From: an uncultured bacterium
Lineage (GTDB): Bacteria > Verrucomicrobiota > Lentisphaeria > Victivallales > UBA1829
DNA length: 64,000 bases
Assembly (NCBI GenBank): GCA_949297765.1
Contig: CASFTV010000002.1
Coordinates: 62,001 to 126,000 of the forward strand
Direction: 5' to 3'
The notes beneath the pieces were generated by a model, which did not search any database, had not been told where the DNA came from, and saw nothing but the letters and a program-made list of their open reading frames with translations. A program made the translations under genes and the position numbers. This document shows positions 3,490-21,625 of this stretch, piece by piece. The number at the start of each line of letters is the position of its first letter. Within the stretch, counting starts at the first letter, position 1.

Positions 3490-4380
3490 ATGGCAATCAA
3501 GAAAAATATCATTCCTCACTATAAACTCCCTCGCGCAGGAAAAGAACGCGGATCAACGAAATCGGCAACCGTGGTCGGGGCAAAACTGGATTATCCGGAC
3601 TATTATTCCCTGCCCGTTTTCCCCGCATTCGTCGACCACGGACTCTATACCAGCGGAAACTGGTACGAACATATCAGCTACCGCCTGGTGGCGTTTGAAA
3701 TCCCTCTGGATGGAAATATGCGCTTCCAGCAGCGCGATATGACAACAATCGCCAACCCCGGCACCGTCTACCTCATGCATCGCGGAGAAAATTCCCGCCT
3801 CGAATCGGGCCCCTCCGGAAGATGCCGGAAACTGGCCCTCTGCGTCGGCGGCGCTTCCATCTCCTCCATCATGGCAGATACCGGACTGGCCAACCATGTC
3901 GCCATCAATGTGACAAACTTGAAAAAACTTGTCGACCTGATTCAGTCCATCGAATACGCCATACGATCAAACGAAATCCACCACGCATGCGGACTGACAT
4001 ATGAATTCCTGCTCGAACTGGCATCCAATCTTCAACACGAACTCCCCGAAAAAATGACCGCCATCATCGAAAGTATGAAAATCGGAATCCCGCAAAAACT
4101 CGCCCTCGATGATTTTATCTCGGAATTCCATGTCAGCCGCTCCACCCTGCACCGGCTTTTTAAACGTTTTTTGAACACAACGCCGAAAGAATATTACAGA
4201 AAACTGAAACTCGAATTCGCCCGCAGTCTCCTGAACGATTCTCATTATCCTGTTAAAACGATCGCCGAACGAAGCGGCTTCTCCTCCCCGGTTCAATTCA
4301 CTCACGCTTTCCGGAGAACCTATCAGATGTCCCCGCTCGCCTATCGGGAAAAAAGAAAAAAGGAAGATTCTTTTTCCTGA
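3490..4380 (+). CDS. AraC-family transcriptional regulator
   Basis: DNA-binding regulator of 296 aa. Residues about 40-130 form a cupin-like arabinose-binding domain (YSLPVFPAFVDHGLYTSGN at its front). Residues about 190-290 contain two helix-turn-helix motifs with FHVSRSTLHRLFKRF and AERSGFSSPVQFTHAFRRTY. No Shine-Dalgarno sits before the ATG at 3490; the nearest GGAGG is about 44 bases upstream inside a hairpin, so translation may depend on the preceding gene. The frame is continuous with the preceding oxidoreductase apart from its TGA stop. It probably controls the local genes, possibly including the hydrolase at 4854. Confidence 0.87.
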   Translation: MAIKKNIIPHYKLPRAGKERGSTKSATVVGAKLDYPDYYSLPVFPAFVDHGLYTSGNWYEHISYRLVAFEIPLDGNMRFQQRDMTTIANPGTVYLMHRGENSRLESGPSGRCRKLALCVGGASISSIMADTGLANHVAINVTNLKKLVDLIQSIEYAIRSNEIHHACGLTYEFLLELASNLQHELPEKMTAIIESMKIGIPQKLALDDFISEFHVSRSTLHRLFKRFLNTTPKEYYRKLKLEFARSLLNDSHYPVKTIAERSGFSSPVQFTHAFRRTYQMSPLAYREKRKKEDSFS

Positions 4381-4388
4381 TGGTCTGA

Positions 4389-4690
4389 GTTGGTGGCTTC
4401 TCGCCCCCAACACCCCTCGGCAGGACCGAAGGCCCTGCACCCGCGCAAAAAATTCAATTTTTTGCGCCCGTTGTTTCGACTCCTGTCGACCGAGGGGGGA
4501 GACCAGTGGTTTCCCCCCTGGACCCCCTTATCCTTAAAGGGAGCAGGGAGTGCAGAGGGCGAACCGTCCGGTTTGCCCTTTGCCCGGCAATGCCGGAAAA
4601 AAAAAGAAAGCCGAAATTTGAAATTTCGGCGCCGGGTGCAGGGCCCGTTTGGGTCCTGCCGAGGGGTGTTGGGGGCGAGAAGCCACCAAC
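4389..4690. mobile_element. 302-bp MITE-like element with long terminal inverted repeats
   Basis: The left end starts GTTGGTGGCTTCTCGCCCCC and the right end is its exact reverse complement. The match is perfect over 39 bp (4389-4427 versus 4652-4690) and continues imperfectly through a shared GGGCCCTGCACCCG-like block. Inside are three more hairpins: 12-bp arms at 4443-4467 (GCGCAAAAAATT), 8-bp arms at 4493-4519 (AGGGGGGA) and 9-bp arms at 4611-4629 (CCGAAATTT). There is no credible coding potential: open frames here are Pro/Arg-rich palindrome translations. No clear target-site duplication is visible. It fills most of the 4381-4853 gap. It could be a non-autonomous transposable or REP-like unit or a large structured RNA; no second copy was recognised in this window. 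Confidence 0.6.
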
Positions 4691-4853
4691 ATAGACGTGT
4701 GCAGAAGGAGATCATTTTTCAGAAGATGACACAAAAAATCAACTTTTTAGAATATTTTCGCAACTGTTTCATTTTTCTTCCACTTCCTTTCGGGCGGATT
4801 TCATATTAAAATAAAAAGAAAGAAATCAGGAATCCTAACAGAAAGAGGGAATG

Positions 4854-7800
4854 ATGAAGAGGACGCTGGTGACATTGCTTTTATTGGCATTGGTTTCTTC
4901 CGGAGCGCAGAATCTGCTGAATGAAGGGAGTCTGAAGGGGAAGCTGCCGCGGGGGATTGAGATGACGCTGGGGAAGGGGGGGGCCGGATTTCCGGGTGAC
5001 AGGGGGGAACCGGATGATGCGTTACCGGATTGCGCTTCCGGAGAAAGCGAAGAGTCTGAATCTGACGATGCAGGTTCGTACGGACGGGTGTATCCGGGGG
5101 GATGCGGAGTGGAAGAATGCGCGTCTGGATTTGCAGTTTATCGGCAGGGACGGGAAGCGGGTAGGTCCGTGGCTGAAGACGTTTGCCTTTACGGGGACGC
5201 ATGGCTGGGTATTCTGCGAGCGGGAGTATGCGATTCCGGCGGATGCCGTGTTCATTGATGTGATTCCGGCGAATTACGGGAAGGCGGGGACGATTGAACT
5301 GAAGCAGGTCCGTCTGGTTCCCGACACGGCGTTGGAGGGGACGGATCTTCCTTTGCCGGATGGTTTGTCCGAAGAGGCTGTTTTCTCATTGAAAGATGCG
5401 GAGCGGATCTCGACCCGGACTCGTGATAAAGTGACGCTGAACGGGTTGTGGCAGTTTCTTCCGGTGTTCAAGGGAACGGCGGCGGAAACGGTTCCATGTG
5501 CAGGCTCCGGCTGGGGATGGTTCAAAGTGCCGGCTTCGTTTCCGGAGCTGACGCAGAGAGCGATGGGGCCGGGAGCCAACAACAATATCGTCTATCTTCC
5601 CGGGAAAATCCGTCAGATGGCGAAAAAGGAGAAGATCCGGGAGGCGTGGTACCGTAGGAAAGTCACGCTTCCGAAGGAGTGGGAGGGGCGGCGGGTCCGG
5701 CTTCTGGTCGATATGCTCCAGAGTGTCGGCACGGTCTATGTTGACGGCCGAAAGGCCGGTACGCTTGTGTATCCCGGCGGTGCGCTGGATCTGACGGGAC
5801 GTCTTCTTCCGGGAAGGACGCATGAGCTTTCCATTTTTGTTTCCGCGAAACCGGCGGCGCTTTCCACGTTCATGGGAGAGACGCGCATGTATCAGTCGTT
5901 CCGGGATCTGAACAACCGCGGACTCTGCGGCGATATTGAGCTGGAGGCGATTCCGGCCAAAGCCGGAATTTCCGATGTCCTTGTCATTTCGTCTGTTGCA
6001 GAGAAAACGATCACGTTTGATACCGGTTTTCTGAATCTTCCGGACGGGTCATACCGCTTGAAGGCGGTTGTTTCGGATGTCTCCGGGACGAAGAAAATCT
6101 TTCAATCCAAAATTTTTTCCGGATCGGGGAAACGAGTTTCGTTTTCTTCCGCATGGAGTGATCCGAAGCTCTGGGATATAGACACGCCGCAGAATCTTTA
6201 TACGCTCCGTCTGGAGCTTCTCTCTGCGGACGGAGATCTTCTGGACGCATTTTATCCGGAGGAGTTTGGTTTCCGCGAATTCCAGTTGCGCGGTCGTCAT
6301 TTCTATCTGAACGGCAAAAAGCTGCAGCTCCACGCTGCCGCGGTCACCAACACGCGCTATCCGGCGAAGGGCACGGATGAGATGCTCGCGCACATGCTTC
6401 AAGTCTACAAAAAATTCCATATCAATTTCCTTCTGGAAGCCATCTACGATTTCGCTCCCGGGACCTGCTGTTACAATGCGGCGTACTGGCGCGCGACCTC
6501 GAAAGCCGGCATCCTGACCTCCATGTCCATGCCGCATGTGAAGAACTTCAATTTTGATCTGAAAAATCCGGCCCATGCGGCGGAATACCGACGCATTGCG
6601 GAACACCAGATCCGGCGCTATCAGAACATTCCCGGAATCATCCTGTTCGCCACCAGCCACAATGCGATGGGGTATGCCGATCAGCAGAATCCGGAGCGCA
6701 TCGGCACGTCCTCCTCCGGGAAAACCGGTCTGACTCCGTTCAGCCGGAACCGAAGGAATCAGGCGCTGCTGGCGGAGGCAATTCTGCACCAGATTGATCC
6801 ATCCCGTCCGGTCTATCATCACAGCAGCGGGAATCTCGGAACGATTTTCAGCATCAACTGCTATCTCAACTGGGCCCCCGTGCAGGAGCGGAGCGACTGG
6901 CTTGAACTGTGGGAAAAACAGGGCGACCTGCCGCTCTTCTTTGTCGAATACGGTCCGCCGCACAAAGGCAGCTACACCAGCGAGCGCGGACCGCAGTTCC
7001 TCTGGGCGGGCAGTTATTCAAACGTGCATTGTCTCTGGTTCAACGAGTTCAACGCCGCCTGTCTCGGCGAAAAAGCCTATCGTTCCGATCCGGCCAAGGA
7101 AAAATTCTACCGTTTTGAAGAAAGCCGGGTGAAGGGAAACCGGAAGAACAAGCCCCTCATGGTTCAGATTCCCTTCAATTTTCCGGACAGTCATGAGGTG
7201 CGGAGCCATTTCCTCCGGCGGAATCTGTTCGACTTCCGGGCCAGAGGGCTTTCGGGAATCATCCTCTGGGATTTTGAGTCGCTGTTCCGGAAACTGGAGA
7301 AATCCCGGTCGGCGGTGCCGAATCCCGACCGTTTCCGGAATCTCAAGCGCTCCGCGATCGTGAACGACATCATCTGCATCAAGGACGGCGGTTCCACCTG
7401 CGACTGGTTCTGGCCCAACGATCCCTTGCACCGGTATGCGGTCACGCCGACCGGAGATACCGTCCGTGCCGCATGGCGTCCCCTGACCGCCCGCATCAAA
7501 GGGAAGCTCGGCGAATTCACAGAACAGTCCCATACATTCCGTCCCGGCGAAACGGTCCGCAAGAGCCTCGTGATTCTCAACGATACAAGACAAACGCAGA
7601 CCGTCCGCTGCACCTGGCAGGTTCCCGGACTCGTGGAAAAACAGACGAAATCGGTTTCCGTCCCTCCCGGCGAACGAGTGGATCTTCCCGTCGAATTCGA
7701 TCTGCCCGCTTCTTCTGCCGGCGAACAGAACATCCTCGCGGAATTCCTCTATGCGGACGGATCTTCGGAAAAGGATTCCTTCGCGTTTACGATTCTTCCG

Positions 7801-9540
7801 GAAAAACGAGTCCGTCTTTCTTCGACGGTCGGCGTGATGGATCCGGAGGGTTCGGCGCGCACTCTGCTGAAACGGCTCGGCGTGAGTGCGCGGACTGTCG
7901 GAAAAGAGAGCGATCTTGCCGGAGTCGATCTTCTGATTCTCGGGCGCAAGGCTCTTTCCTCTCTTCCGTTCCCGCTGGACAGGCATCTGGAGAAGGGACT
8001 GAAACTGCTGGTGCTGGAGCAGAGTTCCGAATCTCTGAACCGGATCGGTTTCCGGACCAATGAAATCGGACTGCGCCGGATGTTCCCGGTCAGCGGATTT
8101 TCCGGCGACGTTCTCCGCGACTGGAGAGGAAAAGCGACTCTGCTGCCGCAGTATATGCCGCCGCAGAAGCTGCCGTCCTATCCGATGACCGACTGGTCCG
8201 GATTCATGAACCGGCGCATCTGGCGGGCGGGAAACCGCGGAACCGTCGCCTCCGTTCTTCCGGAGAAACCGGCCATCGGCAATTTCCTGCCGCTGTATCA
8301 GGGCGGATTCGATCTTCAGTATGCGCCGCTGATGGAGTTCCGGGAGAAAAAAGCGGTGATTTTGTTCTGTCAGCTGGATCTCTCTGGGCGGACAGAGGAG
8401 GAGGGCGAAGCAAACAATCTTCTGGCCTCCCTTCTGGAGCGTCTGGAGAAGATGGAGAGCCGTCCGGCAAGAAAAGTCTGGTACACCGGAAACGACGCGC
8501 TCCGGAAACAGCTGGATGCCTTGCGGATCCCGGCGGAAAAAGTGGCGGAAAATCTCTCCTCCGGCGATCTTCTCGTCATCGGCCCGGAAGGGAAAATCCC
8601 GGAAAATCTGACGGAACTGCTCCGGGACGGCCTTCATGTGATGACGGTCGGCCTGAGCGGAGCGGAACTGAAACGGATCATTCCCGGAATACAGACGGAA
8701 TCCGGTTCCCATTATTCCGATTTCTCTTCTCTGGCGGTGGCGGAATTTGCCGGACTCTCCAACGCCGATCTGCATTTCCGCTGGGCACAGAATTTTGATG
8801 CGTTTCCCGCGGACTCCTCCGGCGGACGCACCCTCGAGTTCCGGAAGGTCGGATCCGGGAAAGTCGTGATGCTCCAGATCCCCCCGTGGAAGATCGACGG
8901 AAACGAATATGCACTCCGCTCCTCCCGGCGAAGGGCGGATTTCGCAATGAACCGTCTGCTGATGAATCTCGGCGCCGGCTCGGAGAGCGGACTGCTGCGC
9001 ATGTTCCGTCCGGAAAACGGCAATCTCCGCCTTTCCCTTTCCGGAATCTGGAGGGGAAAAGAGGATCCGGAAAAGGCCGGACGGAAGAAAAAATATTACG
9101 CGCCCGCGTTCTCCGCAGAAGGATGGCGGTCGATCCGGGTTCCCGGATCGTTTGAGTCGCAGTTCAAGGCGCTGGAGAAGTATGACGGATGGTTCTGGTA
9201 CCGTCTTGAATTCCAGGTTCCCCGGGCGATGACGGCGCAGGAAACGGTGCTGTCCCTCGGTGCGGTCGATGACGAATCGTGGATCTGGCTCAACGGAAAA
9301 CTGCTCGGCGAAGTCTCCCGGAAAACCAATCCGAAGAACTACTGGAGCACGGAGCGCATCTGCACAATTCCTCCGCATACGCTGAATGTCGGGAAAAACA
9401 CGCTCTGCGTTCTCTGCAACGATCTCGGAAAAGACGGAGGCATTCTGGGGACTCCCGGTCTGCGGCCAGCAAAACCCTTCTCCCTCTATCCGGATTCCCC
9501 GATTGCAAACGACGATCCCTATCGCTATTTCCACTGGTAA
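4854..9540 (+). CDS. Giant GH2-like secreted glycosidase, frameshifted at a G8 tract
   Basis: Glycoside hydrolase family 2-like protein of about 1560 aa if the frame is restored. The signal peptide (MKRTLVTLLLLALVSSGAQN) starts at 4854 after AGAGGGA, but this frame breaks at a run of eight Gs (4976-4983). The body then continues in the +1 frame (open from 4966; a GTG at 4996 is its first start codon) to 9540. Seven Gs would join them as KGGPDFRVTGG. Domains: GH2 sugar-binding jelly roll (LNGLWQFLPVF through VDGRKAGTLVYPGG), Ig-like sandwich, TIM-barrel region (HAAAVTNTRYP; FFVEYGPPH with the expected nucleophile Glu, codon 6946), a class I amidotransferase-like region around 7900-8350, and a second jelly roll (WLNGKLLGEV). 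The usual acid/base Asn-Glu aligns to His-Asn in ATSHNAMG. A pseudopilin gene follows. Confidence 0.8.
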
Positions 9541-19897: not shown

Positions 19898-21625
19898 ATG
19901 AAAATGTCTCGGATGCTGGGGCGCAGAATCAAGGAAGACCCCAAGGATGCCAAAACAGTCAGCCACAAGTTTTTAATCCGGGGAGGATACATCCGTCCGG
20001 TCTCCTCGGGAATCTACAGCCTTCTGCCGCCGGCGATGAGGATCATTGAGAAGATCGAACAGATCGTCCGGGAGGAGATGAACGCGATCGACGGACAGGA
20101 GGTCCTGATGCCGGTGGTGCTTCCCGCGGATCTCTGGCAGGAATCCGGACGCTTCACCAGCGTCGGACAGGAGCTGCTCCGCTTCAAGGACCGCAACGGA
20201 AAAGACATGCTGCTGGGAATGACGCACGAAGAGGCGATTGTCCATCTTGTCCGGACGGAGGTCACCAGCTACAAGCAGCTGCCGCTGATGGCCTATCAGA
20301 TTCAGACGAAGTACCGCGACGAGGCAAGACCCCGCGCCGGACTGATCCGGGTCCGCGAGTTCACCATGAAGGATGCGTACAGTTTCCATACATCGCAGGA
20401 GTCGCTGGAGGAGTATTACGAGAGAGCGCATCAGGCGTATGTGAACATCTTCCGGAGAGTCGGACTGCGTCATGTGCTTTCGATCAAGGCAAATTCCGGA
20501 ATGATGGGCGGAAATGTTTCTCACGAGTTCATGTCCGTGGCGGACTGCGGGGAGGATACGCTGTTTGTTTCGCCCGACGGAGTCAGCTACAAGGCGAACC
20601 GCGAGATCGCGGTTTCCGCTCTCCAGTTCCAGCGAACCGCCGAGCTGCCGCTCGAAAAGGTCGCGACACCGGATTCCAAAACCATTGAGGAGGTCGCGAA
20701 TTTCCTGAAGGTCAAACCGGAAAATACCGGCAAAGCGGTGTTCTACTCCGATTCCGACGGACGGCTGATCTTTGTCCTGATCCGCGGCGACTTCGAGGTC
20801 AACGAGACAAAACTTCAGAATCTTCTGAAGATCAAGGAGCTGTCGTTTGCGAACGACGAGCAGATCCGCCGGGCGGGAGCCGTTCCGGGATATGCGTCGC
20901 CGGTCGGGATTGATCCTGCAAAGGCGGTGATCGTGGTGGACCGCTCCGTTGAAGGCACCTCCAATCTTGTGGTCGGCGCGAACGAGGCGGGATTCCATTA
21001 CATCAATTTCAATTACGGACGCGACCTCAAGGATGCGCTTGTCGCCGATATCGCGACCGTCCGGGAGGGCGATCCCTGTCCGGTGACCGGCGAACCGCTC
21101 CGCATGGAGCGCGGAATCGAAGTCGGAAACATCTTCCAGCTCGGAACGAAATACTCCGCTCCGATGAAGTGCGAATATCTCGACAAGGACGGAAAATCCC
21201 ATCCGATGATTATGGGATGCTACGGAATCGGAATCGGAAGAACCATGGCGGCTCTGGTGGAAGACTCCCATGACGATTACGGACCGATCTGGCCGATGTC
21301 CGTTGCGCCGTATCAGGTCGAAATCTGCGCGATCACGCCCGACAAGGAGAACGTGATGGAGGTGGCGGATCAGCTGTACCGCGAGCTTGAAAAACGCGGA
21401 GTCGAAGTGCTGTTCGACGACCGCGGCGAAAAGGCCGGATCCATGTTCAGCGACGCCGATCTTCTCGGAATCCCGCTCCGCGCCGTGGTCTCCCCGAAGA
21501 GCATCGCGGCAGGAGCAATGGAGTTCCGTTTCCGCGGCTCCCGCGATTCCGAACTCGTCCCGCTCGAAAAAACCGCAGATTTCCTCGCGGAAAAGGTCCG
21601 GGAAGAGCTCGCAAAATATCAGTGA
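19898..21625 (+). CDS. proS: Prolyl-tRNA synthetase
   Basis: Charges tRNA-Pro with proline. 575 aa, matching bacterial-type ProRS (about 570). Class II motif 1 lies around SSGIYSLLPPAMRIIEKIEQIVREEM and motif 2 around QIQTKYRDEARPRAGLIRVREFTMKDAYSF (first part of each recognised). A YbaK-like editing insertion occupies about 230-390 (GKAVFYSDSDGRLIFVLIRGD). Motif 3 is GCYGIGIGRTMAALVE, and the anticodon-binding domain follows (IWPMSVAPYQVEI). The start at 19898 (MKMSRMLGRRIKED) follows GGAAGG; the frame extends to 19862 without a better start. A YfcE-like gene follows after 10 bp. Confidence 0.95.
   Translation: MKMSRMLGRRIKEDPKDAKTVSHKFLIRGGYIRPVSSGIYSLLPPAMRIIEKIEQIVREEMNAIDGQEVLMPVVLPADLWQESGRFTSVGQELLRFKDRNGKDMLLGMTHEEAIVHLVRTEVTSYKQLPLMAYQIQTKYRDEARPRAGLIRVREFTMKDAYSFHTSQESLEEYYERAHQAYVNIFRRVGLRHVLSIKANSGMMGGNVSHEFMSVADCGEDTLFVSPDGVSYKANREIAVSALQFQRTAELPLEKVATPDSKTIEEVANFLKVKPENTGKAVFYSDSDGRLIFVLIRGDFEVNETKLQNLLKIKELSFANDEQIRRAGAVPGYASPVGIDPAKAVIVVDRSVEGTSNLVVGANEAGFHYINFNYGRDLKDALVADIATVREGDPCPVTGEPLRMERGIEVGNIFQLGTKYSAPMKCEYLDKDGKSHPMIMGCYGIGIGRTMAALVEDSHDDYGPIWPMSVAPYQVEICAITPDKENVMEVADQLYRELEKRGVEVLFDDRGEKAGSMFSDADLLGIPLRAVVSPKSIAAGAMEFRFRGSRDSELVPLEKTADFLAEKVREELAKYQ

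Follow-up and report, generated by a model that had tools for sequence, protein, structure and literature searches.

What is the element that lies between an AraC-family regulator gene and a glycoside hydrolase family 2 (GH2)-type gene in an uncultured member of the Victivallales, and is it a mobile sequence, a structured RNA, or a member of some known class of repeats? It is a non-coding element of 302 bases at positions 4389-4690 of the window, by which we mean the whole 64,000-nucleotide stretch of DNA that was analysed. The element begins just past the stop codon of the regulator gene (3490-4380, + strand) and ends about 160 bp before the start of the GH2-type gene (4851-9540, + strand). 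The latter appears as two overlapping frames (4851-5258 and 4996-9540) that join close to a G8 tract (about 4979-4986), where a frameshift apparently splits it; either the assembly is in error or the tract is prone to slippage. Three open reading frames cross the element, of 139 aa on the + strand and of 124 and 157 aa on the - strand; all of them run through the hairpins and look spurious. One promoter-like site (4726-4753) is downstream of the element.

The preliminary description of this locus, as a hairpin-rich element with 39-bp terminal inverted repeats, is borne out: the ends (4389-4427 and 4652-4690) are exact reverse complements over 39 bp, and the end motif has no match in the window beyond these two, with none expected from 100 shuffles. 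The element strand has a minimum free energy of -235.6 kcal/mol as against -123.6 +/- 5.9 kcal/mol for shuffled versions (z = -19). The complementarity goes on inwards as a perfect 13-bp match (4431-4443 with 4633-4645) and is weak outwards (94% between 4383-4430 and 4649-4696). When each 54-58-base arm is folded in isolation it forms two hairpins, B and C, with a further hairpin, A, adjoining B. The architecture is accordingly [C'B'A']-core-[ABC], namely two opposed REP-like units with four or five more hairpins between them. Thus, the perfect terminal repeat arises because two near-identical units face each other, and it ends at the loop of hairpin B, the sequence of which is not the same in the two arms.

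On the left arm (- strand), the isolated-arm fold and a profile of 61 units define hairpin C' (4389-4411; GTTGG.GGC-TTCTC-GCC.CCAAC) and hairpin B' (4419-4438; GGCAGGACC-GAA-GGCCCTGC), whose GAA loop is hypervariable between copies, while hairpin A' (4443-4467; GCGCAAAAAATT-C-AATTTTTTGCGC) was delineated by inverted-repeat analysis. The right module (+ strand) comprises hairpin A (4610-4630), recognized by comparison of copies, hairpin B (4638-4659), directly preceded by GGGT (4634-4637), and hairpin C (4668-4690), whose loop GAGAA (4677-4681) fits the pattern G-N-R-N-A; the last two are recovered by the arm fold, the 61-unit profile and a cross-genus alignment. The core contains the hairpins TCGAC-TCCT-GTCGA (4476-4489, from the fold), AGGGGGGAGACC-AGT-GGTTTCCCCCCT (4493-4519, from sequence and fold) and ACCCCCTTATCC...AGGGAGCAGGGAGT (4522-4551, from copy comparison), followed by GCAGAGGGCGAACC-GTCC-GGTTTGCCCTTTGC (4552-4583) and CCGGCAATGCCGG (4584-4596), both from the fold. 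Other copies have 25-95 extra bases within the hairpin at 4522-4551, beside 4535/4536. Three interior hairpins had earlier been described as perfect: this holds for those at 4443-4467 and 4611-4629, whereas the one at 4493-4519 includes one G-T pair as DNA, and those at 4552-4583 and 4584-4596 are two further interior hairpins.

This element is one member of a dispersed family of intergenic hairpin repeats, in which the whole is kept as a unit in three sister species (G001, G002 and G003). A search of 60 relatives recovered 18-36 match pieces from each of these species, which have about 10-30 copies apiece; full-length copies with unrelated flanks are found in all three. Beyond the genus, one of the 60 relatives matched, a genome of another genus (G025) with a single copy; its contig shares a flank with a G002 contig (L083 and L096), and one of the two may be wrongly binned. 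Searches of GTDB genomes with the exact end motif returned 42 stretches, all from four MAGs of uncultured Victivallales/Lentisphaeria. The exact 25-base end motif had no hits in viral contigs, and a viral origin was rejected on this ground. The assemblies are MAGs, and many contigs break inside the element, as is expected of repeats. In the outer right flanks of some copies (L034, L050), the segments CCCCCGAAGCAGG in G002 and CCCCGGC in G003 can pair with CCTGCCGAGGGG of the unit as an alternative to hairpin B, with the pairing varying between these species.

The window's own genome (G000) has one full copy, the rest being solo units: a single one on contig C40 at 19600 and a tandem pair on C19 at 20154-20287. 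Solo units are decayed, but not all of them: the unit at C19:20230 scores level with full copies. Several solo units score 62-64 bits versus 75-85 bits for most arms of full copies. The preliminary description had held that a single-copy state in its genome together with absence from relatives would argue against mobility; the lone full copy in this genome gives a misleading answer here, given the tens of copies in the sister species. A run of TCAACCA repeats directly follows the solo unit on C40 (L007 1079-1120), and a further double-hairpin subfamily, GTCAAGGACTCCGTCCTTGTCGCGGTCCAGCGGCGAGACGCTGG, is found in the same genome on contig C10 at about 82200-82300 (L110).

We then asked how the copies vary. 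Across 61 distinct arm units, a base other than the majority one is found in 1% of cases at paired columns and in 15% at unpaired columns, with hot spots in the hairpin B loop (57-66% at its three bases) and at the fourth loop base of hairpin C (30%); one base position at the outer edge varies in 59%. In the whole right half the variation is 2.1% at paired versus 9.5% at unpaired positions (Mann-Whitney p = 0.007, shared ancestry uncorrected). Within the genus the stems are near-invariant, with 1/110 pairs doubly changed, and since they hardly change, the genus by itself cannot show pairing as such; hence, a cross-genus alignment is needed for covariation. A covariance model of the unit detected relatives in genera g3 and g9 whose stems differ, and we aligned 11 sequences from three genera, hand-chosen among the model hits. 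In hairpins B and C of this set, 94.7% of the cells are paired, 20 cells are double-changed as opposed to 6.8 in shuffles (0/500), and the covariation score is 0.324 as opposed to at most 0.055 for slid structures. These comparative figures show that, across genera, compensatory changes preserve the stems B and C. In all 11 sequences hairpin C has the loop G-N-R-N-A, with a variable fourth base, a sequence pattern that would fit a GNRA-like pentaloop; pentaloops of this type with a looped-out base occur in the boxB RNAs to which N peptides bind (PMC12550061).

At least about ten loci, as judged from flanking genes, are common to two or three species, while the window locus itself was matched in none of the other three species. 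Copies are 96.2% identical within G002 and 95.8% within G003, and orthologous G002-G003 pairs (89-92%) are no closer than any G002-G003 pair (90.2%). Likewise, in a tree of the right half the copies cluster by species and not by locus, with most inner branches weakly supported and one G001 copy pairing with its G002 ortholog. This likeness by species, lacking an excess between orthologs, shows that the family has spread or been homogenised species by species; the pattern would fit both homogenisation within each species and repeated insertion at favoured sites, and the common sites are also compatible with concerted evolution of old insertions instead of ongoing movement. At one locus the orientation of the copy is inverted between G003 and G002. 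Several orthologous sites differ in state: at two loci G002 and G003 have full copies while G001 has only a decayed unit, and the tandem solo units on C19 of G000 occupy an orthologous site that is in a differing state elsewhere. The flanks of the window copy show no target duplication, and at the orthologous loci neither a target duplication nor a clean empty site was readable, the flanks being degenerate inverted repeats or unalignable. The G002 and G003 copies extend outward as degenerate inverted sequence, and no common outer end is definable from the copies compared.

Taken together, these observations make it probable that the element is a REPIN/BIME-like non-autonomous interspersed palindromic repeat, consisting of an inverted doublet of the A-B-C unit with a structured spacer; BIMEs combine alternating palindromic units with other motifs. 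The palindrome would become single-stranded on the lagging strand or at a nick and be recognised by its hairpins, and it would spread either through a transposase acting in trans that the assemblies lack or in which it went unrecognised, or through gene conversion among the copies. Effects on neighbouring genes, such as termination, formation of an mRNA end or insulation, would be secondary. We infer the movement of the element from its dispersal and homogenisation; a role at the RNA level is possible.

In support of this placement, the element is an inverted doublet with a hairpin-forming spacer, dispersed in extragenic space. It also has the terminal inverted repeats of a MITE, but these are the palindromic units themselves, and no autonomous relative with the same ends was found among the retrieved copies, in which the halves are at most about 95 bp apart. 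Of the two readings first offered, a non-autonomous mobile element or a large structured RNA, both gain something from the dispersal of the family and its compensatory stems; a classical TIR transposon copy is not what we find, because the ends are two facing REP-like double hairpins and neither a target duplication nor, among the Y1 and IS110 families looked for, a transposase that could move it was found. As to the mover, the RAYT/Y1 transposase domain (PF01797) is absent in G001 and G002 in a search of 36 family genomes with possible MAG gaps, the G000 version looks like an ordinary IS200-type TnpA and that of G003 is only a contig-end fragment; with the domain thus absent, IS200-type or fragmentary in the genus, we rejected a RAYT as the mover. 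A RAYT gene flanked by the repeat was likewise not found in the genus genomes. The 61-unit consensus has no GTAG or related tag at the hairpin foot, GGGT(G) instead preceding hairpin B, and the element also has no CGTC tag. The preliminary description could name no family; by its architecture the element is best placed with the REP/REPIN-like repeats, among which it would be new as a variant. We keep it apart from the GTAG REPINs, since both tag and RAYT were looked for and neither was found. We rejected an integron attC identity since, by inspection, the ends (GTTGGTG/CACCAAC) do not fit the core motif RYYYAAC/GTTRRRY. A scan of Rfam gave only sub-threshold matches (the highest at 25.2 bits, where the gathering score is 50), and a search of the literature on repeats in Victivallis found nothing relevant.

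The main alternative, though unlikely, is that the element is a structured RNA at gene ends, acting as a bidirectional terminator, a protector of mRNA 3'-ends or a protein-binding site via the hairpin C loop, and kept by selection at set loci. The loci common between species, the many copies 25-60 bp past stop codons, the compensatory changes across genera and the resemblance of the hairpin C loop to protein-bound pentaloops are all consistent with it, as is a terminator-like site on the - strand formed by an A-run (4597-4609) and hairpin A (4610-4630). However, terminator matches number 2 as against 1.4 expected in shuffles, which is no excess, and some copies are upstream of genes. Moreover, the sites are not fixed, since at the orthologous positions G001 and G000 have decayed copies or none, and the homogenisation by species speaks against selection at set loci.

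It is less likely still that A-B-C constitutes a phylum-wide RNA module, seen by a host or element protein via the GNR(N)A loop in its hairpin C, and carried for RNA-level protection or insulation as cargo of unrelated elements, including the doublets of this genus. Related units as such do occur across the phylum: a second model matches 19 of the 137 genomes searched in the order and 24 of the 288 in the phylum, its hits being biased towards the loops used in building it. Genus g3 has tandem arrays of the unit, and in G091 the A-B-C module is found inside a typical MITE, some 290 bp long, whose TIR ends read GGCTSTGTACTAAACA. In G306, an IS110 transposase gene has a B-C-like double hairpin at its 3' end, and this lies within the repeated segment of all six identical IS110-family copies; the base-paired foot of the G306 hairpin B differs from that of the genus element, and the double hairpin may be analogous. 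Each of these IS110 copies (L203-L208) has as its left neighbour a palindromic GGCTGTCTC...GAGACAGCC repeat.

The G091 MITE raises a further possibility, which we regard as improbable, that the genus element represents the interior of a classical TIR MITE moved by a DDE transposase. The MITE end has 93 matches in G091 compared to 0 for a reversed control pattern, one copy is flanked by an exact 8-bp duplication, TTTTGTTG, and the degenerate inverted sequence outward of the G002 and G003 copies is what such a reading might lead one to expect. Nevertheless, neither an outer end nor a target duplication is definable for the element of this genus (g1), and the G091 ends are wholly unlike its own. 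Several copies of this high-copy MITE (L224-L227), which also holds a terminator-like hairpin beside the A-B-C module, are inserted in T-tracts past hairpins. Finally, derivation from or movement by an IS110-family element, prompted by the six G306 copies with their internal double hairpin, is highly improbable and for the genus largely refuted, short of missing contigs, as the IS110 transposase (PF01548) is absent in G000-G003 and the G306 hairpin has its different foot.

The family bears on the question of how REP-like repeats without a RAYT spread and stay uniform: it combines shared sites, species-wise uniformity, near-invariant stems and freely varying loops with no RAYT found, so that long-read genomes could address the question. 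Should hairpin C indeed be a GNRA-like pentaloop, this would also suggest that such repeats act at the RNA level.

Among known systems, MITEs with TIRs and target duplications are similarly small, non-coding and dispersed, with inverted ends, and that of G091 even holds the A-B-C module; the difference is that no target duplication is readable for the genus element. The BIMEs of Escherichia coli are mosaics of palindromic units in alternating orientation with other motifs (PMC2817692). The genus element shares the mosaic of alternating units, but its sequence is unrelated and its spacer hairpins are invariant. For the REPs, CGTC repeats without a dedicated transposase, REP dimers, heterodimers with structured spacers and TIRtrons have been described (PMC3733652). 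The CGTC and GTAG dimers resemble our element in their head-to-head or tail-to-tail arrangement, structured spacers and location between or after genes, and differ in their tags, in place of which it has GGGT before hairpin B. In the REPINs, two GTAG REPs form an inverted doublet that is moved by RAYTs, and REP singlets are more decayed than REPINs (PMC3116915). While the genus element is much longer (302-395 bp), has a three-hairpin unit, is without GTAG or a RAYT found in its genus, and has a copy number (about 10-30) below that of typical REP families, it is likewise an extragenic inverted doublet with a hairpin spacer, present in many copies and accompanied by decayed singlets.
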